From a virus, in the IMG/VR virus record IMGVR_UViG_3300037493_000164, positions 1 through 31,561 of that record: a stretch of 31,561 bases of DNA; one strand, 5' to 3'. This document shows, one piece after another, positions 7,546-14,934 of the stretch. The position numbers and the translations under genes were made by a program. Position 1 is the stretch's first letter, and each line of letters starts with the position of its first letter. Below the pieces are notes generated by a model. The model was not told the DNA's origin, made no database searches, and worked only from the letters and a program-made list of their open reading frames with translations.

Positions 7546-7758
7546 TTAAAACGGCACTTCCCTCGCCTGCACATCGTATGGATCGTGTTCCCGCCAATCC
7601 GCGCAGGCGCTTGGCGTTCCCTGAAACTGATCGGGCGGCGTTGCGGCGTGTTTGTGGCAATGGTTCGTTTCCCTGTGGAAAAAGTTGCAATCCCAGCAAA
7701 GTCTAGGGCGAGCATTTTCCCAGTCAATCAGCGCAGCCGGCTTTGTCGCGGTGGTCAT
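7546..7758 (-). CDS. Small Cys-rich zinc-ribbon-like protein
   Basis: A 70-residue protein with a CxxC...CxxH...C pattern: Cys21, Cys24, Cys34, His37 and Cys52, within RLCWDCNFFHRE, HCHKHAATPP and FQGTPSACADW. This is likely a structural zinc site. I chose the ATG at 7758, which overlaps the helicase stop (ATGA) and has GAGGAGG eight bases upstream; the ATG at 7764 would be too close to that site. The same Cys/His spacing occurs at the C-terminus of the nuclease encoded at 9338-10345. It lies between the helicase and VRR-NUC genes, so a role with nucleic acid is likely but not proven. Confidence 0.75.
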   Translation of the reverse strand: MTTATKPAALIDWENARPRLCWDCNFFHRETNHCHKHAATPPDQFQGTPSACADWREHDPYDVQAREVPF

Positions 7759-9338
7759 GCCCATTTCCTCCTCAGCACCCTGTAAAACTTACCATCGCGG
7801 CGGTAGTTGATCGTCGCGGGCATTGCGCCAGCGTTGAGCCTGTCTGCCCAATCTTCGAGCGTGATGGCCCCACCAAACGCTACCCCGCCGCTTTGTGCAA
7901 TATCGGCCACTGCCGCCAGAGCCTTTTGCCCAGCATAGCCCTCGTGCGTGATCGGGAAATACTCCGACACCGCCGGATCACTCAAGCCACCATAATAGGA
8001 AACCAACAGCATATCCTTCCCGCTGGCGCGGCTGGTGTGCTTGCGCCAATGCCAGCTTTGCACGGTCATCTCTGCCGCCTCTGCGCCCATGATGTCGTCA
8101 TGATGCAGCCTTAACGCCACCGGCTCTGGTATCGGGAACGCCTCGCCGCAGGTCGGGCAGACCTTGGCGCTGATATGCACCAATTCGTTGCAGGCATCGC
8201 ACACCTTGATCGGCGCTTCGCCATTGCCTTCGCCACGGCGTTTCTTCGGTTCGATGGCAGTGATCGGCCCATGCGTTGCCACTACCCCGGCAAAGTCCAA
8301 CACCAAGCAATGATCGGTATGACTTTTCAGCCGCATCCCGCGACCGGCCATCTGTACATACAGGCTTGGACTCATCGTCGGACGCAGCATGGCGATCAGG
8401 TCGATGTCGGGATAATCGAACCCGGTCGTTAGGACATTGGCGTTCGTCAGCGCACGAATCCGCCCGGCTTTGAAATCCGTCAGCAGCCTGTCACGCTCCG
8501 CCTTTGGTGTCGTCCCTGTCACGCAGGCCGCTGCGATTCCATACTGATCGAGCAGCGCAGCGATAGCCTCGGCATGGTGGACGCCAGCGCAGAAGAATAG
8601 CCATGCCTTGCGGTCGCCAGCCCGCGCGATCACTTCCTCGACAACGGCGATGTTGTTCTCGTCGGTATCGACCGCTGCCTGCAATTCGCTGTCAATGAAC
8701 TCGCCACCGCGCTTATGGACGCCGCTGGTGTCAAATGAAGTCTGGCACATCTTGCTGCGGAGCGTTGACAGGTAGCCTTTATAGATCAGTTCCTCAATCG
8801 ACACCGGCTCGATCAGGGCGTGGAACAAGGCAGGCGCGTCGGTGATGAGACCATGCCCTAGGCGATATGGCGTGGCCGTTAGGCCCACCACACGCAGCGC
8901 CGGGTTGATGGTGGTTAGATCGGCCAGCAGTTGCCGATAGCCGCCTTCGTCTTTGTGGCTAACCAGATGGCATTCGTCGATAATGACGAGATCGACATGG
9001 CCGATCTGAGCCGCCTTTGTCCGCACCGATTGGATTCCGGCAAACGTGATCGGCTCACCAAGCACCTTGCGATTTAACCCAGCAGAATAAATCCCCATCG
9101 GTGCGTTGGGCCAGTGTTCCCGCATTTTCTCGGCGTTCTGGCTGATAAGCTCTTTAACATGGGTCAGCATCAAGATGCGAGTGTCGGGCCAGCTTTGAAT
9201 GGCATCCTTGCAAAGCGCCGCAACGATGTGGCTCTTGCCTGAGGCAGTCGGTAGCACCAGACACGGGTTGCCAGCATTGCCAGCCGCGAACCATGCGTAA
9301 AGCTGGTCGATGGTGCGTTGCTGATAGTCACGCAGCAT
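7755..9338 (-). CDS. SF2 DEAD/DEAH-type helicase
   Basis: A 527-residue ATP-dependent helicase or translocase. Motifs in order are the Q-like RDYQQRTID (3-11), Walker A PTASGKS (30-36), motif Ia LTHVKEL, DECH box (121-124), motif III LTATP (153-157), NVLTTGFDYP (301-310) and motif VI YVQMAGRGMR (327-336). A CxxC...CxxC zinc knuckle follows at Cys380, Cys383, Cys394 and Cys397. This is the RAD25/UvsW-like layout common in phages, where it drives branch migration or recombination-dependent replication. Its start overlaps the stop of the nuclease gene by one base (TGATG) and its stop overlaps the Cys-rich gene (ATGA), within a recombination gene set. Confidence 0.93.
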   Translation of the reverse strand: MLRDYQQRTIDQLYAWFAAGNAGNPCLVLPTASGKSHIVAALCKDAIQSWPDTRILMLTHVKELISQNAEKMREHWPNAPMGIYSAGLNRKVLGEPITFAGIQSVRTKAAQIGHVDLVIIDECHLVSHKDEGGYRQLLADLTTINPALRVVGLTATPYRLGHGLITDAPALFHALIEPVSIEELIYKGYLSTLRSKMCQTSFDTSGVHKRGGEFIDSELQAAVDTDENNIAVVEEVIARAGDRKAWLFFCAGVHHAEAIAALLDQYGIAAACVTGTTPKAERDRLLTDFKAGRIRALTNANVLTTGFDYPDIDLIAMLRPTMSPSLYVQMAGRGMRLKSHTDHCLVLDFAGVVATHGPITAIEPKKRRGEGNGEAPIKVCDACNELVHISAKVCPTCGEAFPIPEPVALRLHHDDIMGAEAAEMTVQSWHWRKHTSRASGKDMLLVSYYGGLSDPAVSEYFPITHEGYAGQKALAAVADIAQSGGVAFGGAITLEDWADRLNAGAMPATINYRRDGKFYRVLRRKWA

Positions 9339-10345
9339 CAGCCGATCACCTCTGCGTCAGGGAATACCCGCTTCACATTCTCGACCTCATCGGTGCCGCA
9401 CACGCCGGGGTTCGCCAGTATCTCGCGGCTTTTGTATGCAGTCGCGCTGTTCTCGATCACGCGGTCGCCGATCTTCCACATAACGCTATGCCCGTCCTCG
9501 CTGGGGATCATCGGCCACGGCACTAGATCAGGATGGATGATGTGGTCATCGCAGCCGGTGTGCTGAAAATCGACCGGGATGTTATCGGCATCATGCCGTT
9601 CGCAGCGCCATGTGGAATCCGCCAGAGCCGTGCTGTGCGCGCAGGTGCGGCAGTTGGCGAACTTGGTTGGCTCTGCCTTATGGCAGAAGCTATGCGCTGG
9701 ACAGAAGCGGCACTGATACCATGTCGGATCAGTGCTGATCGGTGGCGGTATACGATCCGCCAGTGCGATGCGCTGGCCGCGCTCAACCGCTTTAGTGGCA
9801 ACGTCAGGATCGTAGCGCACACGCTCAATGTGCAGCCGGTCATCATCTTTGCAGACGCCAACGTAAAGCGCCCGGTCAATGCTGGTGCCGTGCATATAAA
9901 CCTGCATCTGGACGTAGTGCATCGGCTTGGATTTCTCGACGCCGTTCTTCGCCAGATCGTCGAAGGACTTCTTGCTGTGCGTCTTGAACTCAGCAACGTG
10001 GCGCTTCTTGGGCGATTCCGGCACTCCGCTTTCGATGATGCCGTCAAGGCTGCCAGAGACGTGACTGCCGAAGTTCACCCGCGCTTGGCTTGATCGAATA
10101 TCAATCCCGACGTTGCGCAGATCGCGAACAATGATTGCCTCTTCGTTGTGGCCACGGCGGAACAGGCGCAAGATGCGTCCCTCGAACTCTTCCACCACAG
10201 CCCAGCGAAATGATAGCCACAGCCAACGGTCGCAGGGATGGCCGAGAGTGCTGCAACCCAAGTGCGGGCGCGGCTTTTCGCTTTGCGATTTGTGGTATTG
10301 GTCAATCAGATTCGTTATGGTATTTATCGGATCGGGCAATTTCAT
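9338..10345 (-). CDS. Cas4/RecB-like PD-(D/E)XK nuclease with C-terminal Cys cluster
   Basis: A 335-residue nuclease. The core is visible: an acidic pair near 68-69 (GHNEEA), GSLDGII with Asp101, AEFKTHSKKS with Glu119 and Lys121, and YVQMQVYMHG with Gln146. Cys31 and Cys38 at the front (LGCSTLGHPCDRWLW) plus Cys212, Cys215 and Cys221 (CRFCPAHSFC) could hold an iron-sulfur cluster as in Cas4 and AddB. A second cluster (Cys232, Cys235, Cys248, His251, Cys265) resembles the small protein at 7546-7758. Phage enzymes of this kind resect DNA ends for an annealing protein, and a Sak4-like gene lies upstream in the same operon. GGGGAG precedes the ATG. Confidence 0.85.
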   Translation of the reverse strand: MKLPDPINTITNLIDQYHKSQSEKPRPHLGCSTLGHPCDRWLWLSFRWAVVEEFEGRILRLFRRGHNEEAIIVRDLRNVGIDIRSSQARVNFGSHVSGSLDGIIESGVPESPKKRHVAEFKTHSKKSFDDLAKNGVEKSKPMHYVQMQVYMHGTSIDRALYVGVCKDDDRLHIERVRYDPDVATKAVERGQRIALADRIPPPISTDPTWYQCRFCPAHSFCHKAEPTKFANCRTCAHSTALADSTWRCERHDADNIPVDFQHTGCDDHIIHPDLVPWPMIPSEDGHSVMWKIGDRVIENSATAYKSREILANPGVCGTDEVENVKRVFPDAEVIG

Positions 10346-10377
10346 TGCTCAGTCTCCCCGTTGCTGTGGTTGAGGCG

Positions 10378-10410
10378 TCCCCCCGGCTTGACTCCCCAGT
10401 GCCGGGGGGA
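10378..10410 (-). other. Strong 10-bp GC hairpin between DUF669 and nuclease genes
   Basis: TCCCCCCGGC (10378-10387) and GCCGGGGGGA (10401-10410) are perfect inverted arms around a 13-base loop, in a 74-base gap within the leftward operon. No U-run follows on either strand. It could be an attenuator or an RNA-stability element that separates expression of the SSB-like protein from the nuclease. It is not a textbook Rho-independent terminator. Confidence 0.55.
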
Positions 10411-10419
10411 CAAACTCTC

Positions 10420-10917
10420 TTACTTAGCCCAAGGCGGCTTAGCGGTTGCGCTGGTGGACTGCGCAGCCGATGCCTTCGGCATTGCCCCCATCGATCCGCC
10501 AATCGCCTTCCAGCCAGCCACTTCGTTGCGGTCTTGCGTGTAGCCGTTGGCTACATCCTTGGCGCTTGCCTTCTTGATCTTGATCTTGATGGAAAGCTGG
10601 CCACCGATCAGTTCGTCGGAGTCCTGCACCTTGGTCAAGCCAATGGCCCGCATCAGTTCGCCAAGCTGTTCGCGGCCAATGCGCTCCGCTTCTGGATTCG
10701 GGTTACGGATGTTGAGGCTGGCGAAGATCACCCTGCCCTGCTGGGTCGGCCCAGTGATGTCGTAGCGAACGTCAATTTTGGTGCCGGTGCCAGCCTTGGT
10801 CTGGCCGACCTCAGCCTTGCTGATCGTGGCGTTGTACCAGCCTTCGGGCAGCAGATCGTAGCTGCGGTCGGACTGGGGGAGATCGTCAGCGACGAAGGTT
10901 TCATCGAGGAATGCCAT
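10420..10917 (-). CDS. DUF669 family protein (SSB-like)
   Basis: A 165-residue protein with the DUF669 pattern: DETFVADDLP, LLPEGWYNATISKAEVGQTK, a TKIDVRYDITGPTQQGRVIF strand, LNIRNPNP, REQLGELMRAIGL and GGQLSIKIKIKK. The C-terminus is a low-complexity Ala/Pro/Ser tail ending in Lys. DUF669 proteins are OB-fold-like and are usually found next to phage single-strand annealing or RecA-like genes, where they are thought to act as single-strand binding proteins. The start at 10917 follows the upstream stop with a one-base gap. Confidence 0.85.
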   Translation of the reverse strand: MAFLDETFVADDLPQSDRSYDLLPEGWYNATISKAEVGQTKAGTGTKIDVRYDITGPTQQGRVIFASLNIRNPNPEAERIGREQLGELMRAIGLTKVQDSDELIGGQLSIKIKIKKASAKDVANGYTQDRNEVAGWKAIGGSMGAMPKASAAQSTSATAKPPWAK

Positions 10918-10918
10918 G

Positions 10919-11302
10919 TCAAATATCCTTGTTGGTGATGGTGAAAGAAGGACGGCCCGGTGTGGCCGTGATTGCGTCAAGCAGTGGGGAGGTGATTTCC
11001 GGCTTGGCTGCCTTCCAAGCGGCGGCGTTGATTTCCGGCTTCCACCGGAAGAGGCTTGCAAGATGCTCAGTCAGGCCGTTCTCAGCCGCCAACTCTTGCA
11101 GCTTATCGGCGTTGACCTTGCGGTTGATGCGGCCCTCGATCTTGATCTTGTAAGCGTCCGCATCGACGTTGACGGTGCCGTCAAGGTTCTCGGCAATGCC
11201 AAGGCTCTTGACCATCGCGTCCTCCAGATCGCGCCGGGTCTTGATTGCGGCGGTCTCGATTGCCTTGGCGTTCAGCCATTGCTGATAGATTGAGACGGTC
11301 AT
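10919..11302 (-). CDS. Conserved-type phage protein of unknown function in recombination operon
   Basis: A 127-residue protein. The N-terminal half is a long helix (YQQWLNAKAIETAAIKTRRD, then LEDAMVKSLG), followed by a short strand region (GTVNVDADAYKIKIEGRINR) and a C-terminal part with RWKPEINAAAWKAAKPEI. I recognise the layout from phage recombination clusters, where such proteins sit between the annealing ATPase and DUF669, but I cannot name an activity; a Gam-like end-binding role is one idea. The start at 11302 overlaps the Sak4-like stop (ATGA); an upstream start at 11389 would overlap that gene needlessly. Confidence 0.75.
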   Translation of the reverse strand: MTVSIYQQWLNAKAIETAAIKTRRDLEDAMVKSLGIAENLDGTVNVDADAYKIKIEGRINRKVNADKLQELAAENGLTEHLASLFRWKPEINAAAWKAAKPEITSPLLDAITATPGRPSFTITNKDI

Positions 11303-11976
11303 GCTGCACCGCCGATCTTGGCGATGATGGCACCGAGATCGGGCGCTTCCCAAGTCTCCAGCTTGCCGGAACGATCCTTGGCCAGCCACGCGCCGTCGCC
11401 GTCACACATCAGAGCGCGCTGAGTTGCGCCATCTGCGTCACGTTCGACCCGAAGCGCCAGCACCTCATCAAAGAAGTAGGGCAAGCCCTGCGTCAGTGAC
11501 TTTCCGGGCATCCCCGGATTGTAGAGGAGTTTCCCCATCTCATCCTGTGACTTTTCCAGCTTCGCACTCATGTAAACATGCTTGCCGGGCAGATCACGGA
11601 AGGCGCGGATGAGTTCCTGCATGGTGGTGTTGAGTTCACCATATGCAGCGCGACCGTCTTTGTTCTTGCGAAGTTCGTGCTGAAGGACAACTTCAGCCAC
11701 CTCGCTGATGCTGTCCAGCGCCACGCTTTCGAAGATTGTCGCTTCCGTCGATGACTTGCACCAAGCGAATGCCTCCATGAGATCATCCATGTTGGCGATT
11801 TCGATGTAAGGTAAGTTCGCGTCTTGGATGGATAGCAGCCCACCCTCTGCCGACAGCACCACCGGGTTTGGCAGTGTGCGGATCAGGCTCGTCTTGCCAG
11901 CGCCAGCTTGCCCGTAGCAGAGCAACTTGACGCCGTTGGCGGATAACCCGCCCGTCTTCTTCAGATTGATTGCCAT
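11299..11976 (-). CDS. Sak4-like RecA-fold ATPase (AAA_24), putative annealing recombinase
   Basis: A 225-residue P-loop ATPase. Walker A is GQAGAGKT (22-29); Walker B is VALDSI with Asp88; KHVYMSAKLEKSQDE at 132-146 resembles the sensor strand of AAA_24 proteins. Size and motif order match Sak4-type phage single-strand annealing proteins, a short RecA-related family. It is the first gene of the leftward operon, followed by a small unknown and the SSB-like DUF669 gene, which is the typical Sak4 context. GGAG lies about eight bases before the ATG. A generic phage nucleotide-binding protein is the alternative. Confidence 0.85.
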   Translation of the reverse strand: MAINLKKTGGLSANGVKLLCYGQAGAGKTSLIRTLPNPVVLSAEGGLLSIQDANLPYIEIANMDDLMEAFAWCKSSTEATIFESVALDSISEVAEVVLQHELRKNKDGRAAYGELNTTMQELIRAFRDLPGKHVYMSAKLEKSQDEMGKLLYNPGMPGKSLTQGLPYFFDEVLALRVERDADGATQRALMCDGDGAWLAKDRSGKLETWEAPDLGAIIAKIGGAA

Positions 11977-12277: not shown

Positions 12278-12407
12278 TAATATCCTCCAGTTTCAAGCTG
12301 GGCGCGAAGCCGCCATGAATGGTGACAAGCGCGATTCGCGCAGGCACAAAGATTGGCTCGAAGGTTTCGACGCCATCACATCCCAGAGGCTAAAGAAAAA
12401 TGGCTGA
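12270..12407 (+). CDS. Rmf/CrpP-like small protein
   Basis: A 45-residue basic protein overlapping the HTH gene by eight bases and the primase gene by eight bases; both junctions are the same nine bases, ATGGCTGAT. The sequence QFQAGREAAMNG, then a short charged stretch, then DWLEGFDA follows the ribosome modulation factor and CrpP-like spacing (aromatic-Gln-Ala-Gly, Ala and Gly several residues later, Trp-Leu-x-Gly-aromatic). RMF binds 70S ribosomes and causes dimerisation; phage versions could alter host translation. The family call rests on a short pattern and is tentative. That the frame is a gene is supported by the tight overlaps on both sides. Confidence 0.65.
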   Translation: MADNILQFQAGREAAMNGDKRDSRRHKDWLEGFDAITSQRLKKNG

Positions 12408-14421
12408 TCTCACCAACATTCTTGGCGGCCCGTGGTCGCCGCCAAAATTGGCGCAGCCTGATCCTCCAGCCGCGCAGCTACTTGATGCCATGCAACGCGC
12501 AGGGCTGACACCGCCGCGCGAGATCGTGCTGGATGGCAAGATGCACAGGTTCAACTCCGGCACCAAAGGATCGCCCGGCGCTGGCGATAAATCCGGCTGG
12601 TATGTGGCCTATTCAGACGGCATTCCAGCCGGGCGATTCGGTTGCTGGCGCGCTGGCATCGAATCGACGTGGCGGGCTGATGTCGGGCGCAGCCTGACCC
12701 CAGCCGAAGAAATGGCACACGCCCGGCGCATGAACGAGGCCAAGGCGGCGCGAGATGCCGAGACAGCCCGCACCCGCGAAACTGCCGCCAATACGGTAGA
12801 GGCTATCTGGGTCGGTTGCATGGGAGCCGATCCGGCGCATCCGTATCTGGCGCGCAAGGGCATCGGCACTCACGGCTCCCGCGTCACTGGCGACGGGCGG
12901 CTGGTCGTGCCGCTTTATACGCCAGATGGAAAGCTCTCCTCGCTCCAATACATCGACGTTGACGGCGGCAAACTCTATCACAGCGGCGGACAGACCGGCG
13001 GCTGCTACTGGACTGTCGGGACGATGGACGAGCCGGGGCCGATCTACATTGCCGAAGGATTCGCTACAGCCGCGACGATCCACGAAGTCACGGGCCGGCC
13101 CTGTGTCGTGGCCTATTCGGCTTCAAACTTGGTGCCGGTGACCGGAGCGATTCGTGAACTGGTCGGGATCACAACGCCGATCACCATCGTCGCAGACAAC
13201 GACACATCCGGCACTGGCCAGAAATATGCCGATCAAGCCAGCGCAAAGCATGGCGCGCGGGTGATTACGCCGCCCATGCCCGGAGACGCGAACGACTATC
13301 TTGCGGCTGGGCATGATCTGAAGGTGCTGTTGATGCCTCCGCCCGTGACCGATTGGCTAACCCCAGCCGATGACTTCTGCCTTGAGCCTGCGCCGATCCG
13401 CTGGCTGGTCAAACACTGGTTGCAGGAGGCTGCGCTTATCATGGTGCATGGGCCATCCGGTGGCGGCAAGACATTCGCCGTGCTGGACTGGAGCCTGCAT
13501 ATCGCGTCCGGCATGACGGAATGGCACGGTCATCGCGTTAAGCCGGGGCCGGTGGTGTATCTGGCGGGCGAAGGCCATCACGGGCTGCGGTCTCGCGTTG
13601 CAGCTTGGAAGCAGCATCATGGCGCTGGTCGGCTGGATATGTGGATTTCCAAGACCGGCACTGATCTGAACACGCCGGAAGGCTATCAGCGGGTCGTCGA
13701 TGCCATCCGCGCGCTGCCGTATCCGCCTAGCCTCATCAATGTCGATACCCTGCACAGGTTCTTGTCAGGAGATGAGAATAGCTCCGTCGATGCCAAGACA
13801 ATGATCGATGCCTGTGCGGGATTGATGCGGGAGTTCTCTTGCTCAGTGCTGCTCGTCCATCATACCGGCGTATCCGACGAGGCTCAGCACCGGGCGCGCG
13901 GATCGAGCGCATGGAAGGGCGCGCTGGAGATCGAGATCAGCGTTATACCGGCAAAGGGTGACGCTCCGATCCAGATCGTGCAGCGCAAGTCTAAAGACGC
14001 TGAAGAAGCCAATCCGATCTACGCGCGCTTGCAGCCTGTATCAATCAAAGGCTGGCTTGATGAGGATGGTGAGCCTGTCACCAGCGCCGTCATGGTCGCT
14101 GAGGAAGCGCCTCCAGAGCGTCGGAAAGAGTCCAAGCTAGATATATGGCGCAAACTTTTTGAGGCTGCTTGGTGGGGTTCTGGTGCCGAGATTGTCGACG
14201 GACAGCCGTTTGTGTCTCGCTCGGCGCTGCTAGATCACGTCAAAAACAAGCTGGAATTGACCGAATCTTCGGCCCGTCAGTACATCAAACCGAGCGTCTC
14301 CGACAAACTGATTGGAGCCCTGATTGTAGCCGAAATTGTCGCCGTAATAGATGCCGGATTTGCGGTAATTTGTCCGCAAACTGCCGGTTCGATGGTGATG
14401 GCGAAAAACGGCGCGAAATAG
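12400..14421 (+). CDS. TOPRIM primase-RepA-like helicase fusion
   Basis: A 673-residue replication protein. Residues about 40-110 carry the entry module seen in phage primases (DGKMHRFNSG, GWYVAYSDG, GRFGCW). A TOPRIM domain covers roughly 165-305, with Glu219 in IYIAEG and the acidic pair in VADND (265-268). A RecA-like ATPase follows, with Walker A GPSGGGKT (351-358), Walker B LINVDT (Asp449) and VHHTG (486-490), as in RepA-type hexameric helicases. The C-terminal ~100 residues are helical and may bind DNA. It should prime and unwind at the phage origin; the array of CGGTAAC boxes begins two bases after its stop. Confidence 0.92.
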   Translation: MADLTNILGGPWSPPKLAQPDPPAAQLLDAMQRAGLTPPREIVLDGKMHRFNSGTKGSPGAGDKSGWYVAYSDGIPAGRFGCWRAGIESTWRADVGRSLTPAEEMAHARRMNEAKAARDAETARTRETAANTVEAIWVGCMGADPAHPYLARKGIGTHGSRVTGDGRLVVPLYTPDGKLSSLQYIDVDGGKLYHSGGQTGGCYWTVGTMDEPGPIYIAEGFATAATIHEVTGRPCVVAYSASNLVPVTGAIRELVGITTPITIVADNDTSGTGQKYADQASAKHGARVITPPMPGDANDYLAAGHDLKVLLMPPPVTDWLTPADDFCLEPAPIRWLVKHWLQEAALIMVHGPSGGGKTFAVLDWSLHIASGMTEWHGHRVKPGPVVYLAGEGHHGLRSRVAAWKQHHGAGRLDMWISKTGTDLNTPEGYQRVVDAIRALPYPPSLINVDTLHRFLSGDENSSVDAKTMIDACAGLMREFSCSVLLVHHTGVSDEAQHRARGSSAWKGALEIEISVIPAKGDAPIQIVQRKSKDAEEANPIYARLQPVSIKGWLDEDGEPVTSAVMVAEEAPPERRKESKLDIWRKLFEAAWWGSGAEIVDGQPFVSRSALLDHVKNKLELTESSARQYIKPSVSDKLIGALIVAEIVAVIDAGFAVICPQTAGSMVMAKNGAK

Positions 14422-14422
14422 C

Positions 14423-14579
14423 CCGGTAATTACCGGTAACTTTTCAAAAGTTACCGCAGAAGTTATTGAAAACTATAGGAAAAGCATATGCCGGTAACGG
14501 AAGCGGTAACGAAAACGGAGCAAGGCGTCGAGCGGTAACGGCGGTAACAGGTACCTTTAGGTACCGTTACCAGTTACCG
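14423..14579. repeat. Array of CGGTAAC boxes, candidate replication origin (iterons)
   Basis: Seven exact CGGTAAC boxes occur in 157 bases: forward at 14434, 14492, 14504, 14533 and 14542, reverse at 14450 and 14573. Variants lie at 14424 (CGGTAAT), 14429 (its mirror) and 14566 (GTTACCA). Some are arranged as palindromes: CCGGTAATTACCGG at 14423-14436, and CGGTAACTTTT / AAAAGTTACCG around one central base at 14434-14456. A hairpin has arms GGTAAC-A-GGTACC and GGTACC-GTTACC around TTTA (14543-14571). No gene is supported here. The place directly after the primase-helicase gene and the AT-rich patch inside suggest an origin; an operator array is the alternative. Confidence 0.75.
14461..14490. 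other. AT-rich patch inside the box array (possible unwinding element)
   Basis: These 30 bases are about three-quarters A/T in an otherwise GC-rich genome and lie between the left palindromes and the right cluster of boxes. This is where duplex opening would be expected if the array is an origin. TTGAAA and TATAGG within it could instead be read as promoter elements, but their spacing is poor. Confidence 0.4.
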
Positions 14580-14616
14580 GCGATGCGGGCGGTATCGATA
14601 CGGAGGGGAAATGGAC

Positions 14617-14934
14617 ATGGAAATCGGCCAGATTCTAGAAGAACGCGGCACCCGATACGGCGAGTTCGTTGGCGTGTCTCTGGTCGCTCAGAACATCAAG
14701 GCTGCGATGCGGCGTAGTGATAACTGGGCGAGGCTCCCGGCTGATGCGCGCGAGGGTTTGGAGATGGTGGCGAACAAGCTGGGGCGCATCCTGAATGGGG
14801 ATTGCCTCTATGTCGATTCGTGGCGCGATGCCGAAGGGTATCTGAAGCTGGTGGCGGATCGGCTAGAGGCGGTCTCTTGCAACAGATCGACTGATCACGT
14901 ATCTGAAGATCACCAGCCCGAGATCGGAAACTGA
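14617..14934 (+). CDS. DUF6378 family protein
   Basis: A 105-residue protein with the DUF6378 pattern: ILEERGTRYGEFVGVSLVAQ at the front, then NWARLPADAREGLEMVANKL, GRILNGDCLYVDSW and DAEGYLKLVADRL. It is widespread in phages; its function is not known to me. I chose the ATG at 14617, eight bases after GGAGGGG (14602-14608); the ATG at 14611 is too close to that site. It is the first gene after the box array and directly precedes the terminase genes. Confidence 0.8.
   Translation: MEIGQILEERGTRYGEFVGVSLVAQNIKAAMRRSDNWARLPADAREGLEMVANKLGRILNGDCLYVDSWRDAEGYLKLVADRLEAVSCNRSTDHVSEDHQPEIGN

Follow-up and report, generated by a model that had tools for sequence, protein, structure and literature searches.

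The window, by which we mean the whole 31,561-nucleotide stretch of viral DNA analysed here, is a virus contig with P22-like portal and Sf6-like terminase genes. Its plus strand encodes, at 12400-14421, a primase-helicase of 673 amino acids, identified by Pfam, by a match to RSF1010 RepA and by a full-length model. Pfam recognises a TOPRIM domain (Toprim_3, 13042-13308) and a RepA-like AAA_25 helicase (13363-13875), which bears out the TOPRIM-RecA fusion first read from the sequence; the helicase part is related to RSF1010 RepA (1g8y, E 3e-12). Residues ~579-673 (14134-14421) form a C-terminal domain (CTD) with the topology of a winged helix in an AlphaFold2 prediction (pLDDT 87). The CTD matches no Pfam family, and a Foldseek comparison with the PDB gave no confident fold match (best E 0.22); its model matches a predicted viral Prim_Pol protein (E 4e-9). 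Downstream lies orf107 (14611-14934), encoding a 107-residue protein that is 85-91% identical in close relatives with different boxes (see below). One PHROG match of orf107 is labelled phosphofructokinase, a label that looks wrong.

From the end of the primase stop codon at 14421 to the next plausible start at 14611 the DNA is non-coding, and it carries seven exact copies of the box CGGTAAC. Five lie on the plus strand (14434, 14492, 14504, 14533 and 14542) and two on the minus strand (14450 and 14573). They are accompanied by four near copies, namely CGGTAAT at 14424 (plus) and 14429 (minus), CGGTACC at 14560 (minus) and TGGTAAC at 14566 (minus). The original prediction, made from the sequence alone, was right about seven exact boxes on both strands (14434-14579), about spacings of 9, 12 and 29 and about the non-coding nature of the 157 bases concerned; it had counted three near copies rather than four. 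Its claim that the cluster exceeds chance agrees with dinucleotide shuffles and with a test of all 7-mers. Indeed, CGGTAAC occurs 1.87 times on average (maximum 6) in 100 dinucleotide shuffles of the whole window, and the densest 157-bp cluster of any 7-mer, seven copies, compares with at most four in 100 shuffled windows. The box is not equally dense elsewhere, the only two other copies in the 31.6 kb being at 1341 and 19204. As with iterons, short repeats are packed at one site of the replicon.

Two box sets flank an AT-rich spacer. The left set (14423-14456) comprises the two CGGTAAT copies and the exact boxes at 14434 and 14450, the latter two within the inverted repeat CGGTAACTTTTCAAAAGTTACCG (14434-14456). 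The spacer (14457-14491) is 69% AT, a richness equalled in only 0.2% of 35-bp windows, and is a candidate opening site. Beyond it lie the pair of exact plus-strand boxes at 14492 and 14504 (14492-14510) and GGAGCA (14517-14522, plus strand), the counterpart of a GGGGCA element that recurs in relatives whatever their box. The right half (14525-14586) is bounded by the outer stem GCGTCG/CGATGC and contains the boxes at 14533, 14542, 14566 (TGGTAAC) and 14573 as well as an inner hairpin, GGTACC-TTTA-GGTACC (14550-14565). Both halves of the array are inverted repeats, and each folds into a hairpin of its own, with z -4.07 for the right half and about -4 for the left.

A primase search yielded 79 loci, mostly metagenomic contigs, with 44-94% identity. 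In most of these some 80 relatives the DNA past the primase stop carries repeated 7-mers, that is, an array at the same place, and no repeat cluster ranks higher than the array in most contigs examined. The boxes fall into at least 15 types, their classes having been assigned partly by eye; the types include CGGTAAC, CGTATC, GGCCCCT, GCCCCTA, TGACCCT, GTGGACA, CCCCAAAA and GTACAAA. Further types were added by genome contigs and by a query with a single CTD. Hits of the genome scan were mostly metagenome-assembled contigs, which pointed to no host. Among cultured phages, arrays are present in Salicola phage CGphi29 (GGGGACA), Idiomarinaceae phage 1N2-2 (CGGTACA) and Alteromonas phages PB15 and XX1924 (both TGAACCA), for which no origin is annotated in the annotation tables viewed. 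In XX1924 an annotated hypothetical protein (QGZ13137.1) overlaps part of the array (L085:5991-6119) and is probably a spurious gene. The arrays of L011-L016 are weaker, with a modest excess over shuffles by 6-mer count, while L045 and L046 are too short for the presence of an array to be judged. In MW202475, whose primase is related but ends in a different C-terminus, no array was seen within 480 bp of the gene. The array is thus kept in nearly all close relatives, as the original prediction demanded, whereas the box sequence is not. Because the box varies, a search for CGGTAAC only would have mimicked absence of the array. This array is not described in the open-access literature that we searched.

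Several features recur among these arrays. Of 38 arrays, 24 have a hairpin core, CTWWAG, and 30 have GGGGC[AG]; shuffles gave 0.2 and 10.6, respectively. Pairing of the inner stem is kept across box types, with all four pair types used at positions 3-7; since stems were chosen for complementarity, the inner-stem pair count is biased upward. With box positions masked, the outer-stem scores of 35 arrays total 169, where 141.2 (sd 5.2) is expected; this total is significant while the individual arrays mostly are not. The strict form of this test leaves the outer stem of the window, with its one G-T pair, unscored. The AT-rich spacer is not general, being missing from some relatives. A large stem-loop downstream of the gene, its structure kept as the sequence changes, is also the hallmark of the pRN1 type of origin.

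Box type follows the CTD. Identity between the L005 and L021 primases is 90-100% over residues 1-575 and only 26-44% over the last ~100, and their boxes are CGGTAAC and GGCCCCT, respectively. Likewise, L011 and L022 share 94-98% identity in the N-terminal part and 22-40% in the last ~100 residues, with boxes CGTATC and GGCCCCT; L054 and L059 provide a third case. At the DNA level the replaced block extends from ~300 bp before the primase stop to ~200-400 bp after it, between colinear flanks of 84-98% identity (for L017 and L022, 5.6 kb at 95% and 5.2 kb at 89%). Chimeric assembly could imitate such a swap; both GGCCCCT swaps recur in a second contig (L021 and L028; L022 and L024). Across 42 dereplicated sequences, the partial correlation between CTD and box given the N-terminal part is 0.68 (permutation p <= 0.0005), while that between N-terminal part and box given the CTD is -0.09. 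These comparisons support the view that CTD and boxes are cognate partners swapped as one unit. The best reading is that the CTD and its array make up a single specificity cassette that can be exchanged while primase and helicase stay constant. The window also has, on the minus strand at 7755-11976, a recombination module encoding a helicase and Cas4-like exonuclease, SSB-like and Sak4-like proteins. The last three could ease homologous exchange.

The CTD adjoins the array, so a single recombination event would carry the two along even if they were functionally unrelated. Three findings speak against adjacency alone as the reason for the match between CTD and box type. In L048-L050 (with an L070-type CTD), L066 and L068 the array lies ~240-300 bp off, behind an inserted gene, and the cognate box is kept. 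L144 has a CTD of the TGACCCT class with no array beside its gene; its box was chosen on the basis of the CTD before being located 3.8 kb away, where 9 of the 21 copies in the 56.5-kb contig fall inside ~115 bp. Similarly, the L065 contig has a TCACCCT array ~13 kb from the primase, next to its only exact DnaA box, an array that was found by density and matched to the CTD class only afterwards. In MW202867, a protein (MW202867.1 12539-14431; L223:3540-5432) with Prim-Pol and PriCT_1 in place of the TOPRIM part keeps AAA_25 and the CTD, and eight copies of TGGGACA follow its gene. Its helix sequence (QES) is similar to that of the GTGGACA phages. The primase end, too, is exchangeable. Covariation, swaps, displaced arrays and this change of primase type strongly support the original suggestion that the boxes would be bound through the C-terminal ~100 residues.

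Within the CTD, mutual information with box type is highest at K630, Y628, V633 and K636. These columns are at or just past a predicted recognition helix which, with the following loop, spans residues 622-636 (14263-14307, plus strand). Residues 622-633 average 0.79 bits of excess information against 0.45 for the remaining CTD, so the box-type signal is strongest in this stretch without being confined to it. The CTD is accordingly predicted, from model and alignment, to be the box-reading domain of the primase-helicase. Relatives of the CTD were sought with a single CTD as query, and the whole CTD alignment is without conserved stretches; comparison of the L030 CTD with plasmids gave no match.

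The array is most probably the replication origin of the phage, its boxes being iterons read by the winged-helix CTD of the adjacent primase-helicase. Origin function is suggested by the DnaA boxes flanking arrays of relatives, by the hairpins and by position. Six exact DnaA boxes lie in 42.7 kb around arrays compared with five in 668 kb elsewhere, a ~19-fold higher density among related loci that are not independent. Further DnaA boxes were noted beside the arrays of L195, L201, L205 and MW202867; the array of the window itself has none nearby. By analogy, the layout matches that of replicons with demonstrated origin function, the PICI rep-ori (PMC6092414) and the pRN1 stem-loop (PMC4234260). 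A GC-skew mark near the array, which the original prediction had led one to look for, was not seen: skew extremes follow gene orientation, making skew uninformative as an origin marker here.

We infer that binding would initiate replication, and likewise where opening and priming would occur and what would drive the exchanges. In the proposed mechanism, the CTD would place several copies of the enzyme on both box sets. The DNA between or within the sets would then open, either at the AT-rich spacer or by hairpin extrusion, and the RepA-like helicase ring could close on the exposed strand, with the fused primase starting synthesis nearby. In some relatives host DnaA may assist at the adjacent DnaA boxes. 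CTD and array would be replaced together by recombination.

The competing reading offered with the original prediction is an operator array, at which the CTD or another phage regulator would control the early-to-late switch of downstream genes, the array then not being an origin. It has been weakened, keeps some weight and is improbable in our estimate. In its favour, orf107 and the terminase genes follow the array in the window, winged helices are frequent among regulators, and the comparative data bear on cognate pairing rather than on the effect of binding. However, the co-varying partner is fused to a replicative primase-helicase, DnaA boxes adjoin the arrays of several relatives, and the stretch from primase to orf107 yielded no sigma-70-like promoter. 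Moreover, downstream genes vary widely among relatives, L005 and L021 keep orf107 while the box changes, and the upstream Cro-like regulator sits within the conserved flank in the swaps. An operator specific to the Cro-like gene or to orf107 was rejected, both being unchanged across box changes.

A structured RNA or terminator, the hairpins acting in the transcript and box repetition following from the stems, would explain why hairpins persist with changing sequence, and one terminator-like match is found at 14423. This is very unlikely, since boxes also stand beyond the stems as direct repeats, box type follows a domain of DNA-binding type, no Rfam match was obtained, and the terminator matches in the region (6, against 3.3 in shuffled sequence) are near the chance number. 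Hardly credible either is a packaging (pac) site recognised by the small terminase subunit TerS, encoded 360 bp past the array in the window and ~500 bp past it in the L144 contig. Box type does not track TerS: the window and L032 have TerS proteins 75% identical (TerL, 89%) and different boxes, the window and L023 have 78% identity and the same box, and many relatives have other genes after the array. A site of incompatibility, copy control or partition to which the CTD would bind, the real replication start being elsewhere, would have precedents in P4 crr and plasmid iterons, which can have control roles, but seems just as implausible given that no partition genes were seen beside the array, that the window has no second CGGTAAC array and that the array dominates the repeats of most contigs examined.

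If the array is an origin, several known systems resemble it. The alpha protein of P4 combines primase, helicase and a C-terminal iteron-binding domain, with ori and crr as its sites. This precedent for a primase-helicase with its own iterons, invoked from the outset, is in keeping with the architecture and CTD covariation seen here. P4 differs in having two separate iteron regions and another type of helicase, and we know of no comparable spread of box types in P4. RSF1010 RepA is a sequence relative of the helicase part. In RSF1010, iteron binding and priming belong to separate proteins, whereas helicase, priming and putative box-binding functions are fused in the present enzyme. The Rep helicase of SaPI/PICI elements is of a type other than RepA-like AAA_25, and those elements are satellites, whereas tailed phages are concerned here. 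In SaPI/PICI the initiator gene is followed immediately 3' by the origin, pri-rep-ori drives plasmid replication, and initiators occur as allelic variants (PMC6092414). The window is similar in that its origin candidate is directly 3' of the initiator gene, with two box sets flanking an AT-rich region.

ORF904 of pRN1 and a protein of phage BIP-1 are multidomain primase-helicases with a C-terminal winged helix (PMC4234260). In pRN1 a stem-loop of ~100 nt, directly after the gene, serves as the origin; it is conserved in structure and poorly so in sequence, functions when displaced, and had no bound motif identified in that study (PMC4234260). The predicted winged helix and the stem-loop array downstream of the gene are shared with the present family. 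In contrast, pRN1 joins a Prim-Pol to an SF3 helicase, where here TOPRIM is joined to a RepA-like helicase (a Prim-Pol N-terminus occurs only in MW202867), and boxes are evident in the present family. The replaced unit itself resembles RepA plus origin of the V. cholerae PLE, where close relatives differ by joint replacement of DNA-binding domain and origin as a module, cognate specificity has been demonstrated, and the iteron-directed nuclease Odn is the proposed driver (PMC8263062). PLE has an N-terminal RepA_N domain, ~30-bp semi-palindromic iterons and few origin types (PMC8263062), as opposed to a C-terminal domain, boxes of 6-7 bp and at least 15 types here.

A broader reading, which we put forward tentatively as possible rather than probable, is that a widespread phage family with a constant enzyme has, by cassette exchange, built up at least 15 initiator-origin pairs with a readable recognition code, selected for replication private to each phage. 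If true, such selection might reflect, for example, escape from co-infecting phages, satellites or nucleases reading the same boxes. The target sequence of an initiator is rarely predictable in general. With many specificities on a constant enzyme and the box beside the gene, a recognition code and orthogonal origin sets should be derivable and testable. Origins of metagenomic phages could be found by searching for arrays instead of a conserved sequence, and the driver of origin turnover, a question raised by the PLE/Odn work, would become testable in tailed phages.

A variant arrangement occurs in L208 (2500-3300), L209 (2500-3400) and L211, where a CTACCCT array with hairpin is apparently located inside the primase gene. 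The primase reading frame stops after the first CTD helix, the remaining CTD being a separate frame of ~94 amino acids. L187, in which the CTD is fused, has the same box (AGGGTAG). Genes for small proteins bearing a CTD-like motif (RTxxN...PSR) follow the array in L187 and at L208:3213-3788 and L209:3186-3791; these proteins may possibly be competitors or repressors at the origin.
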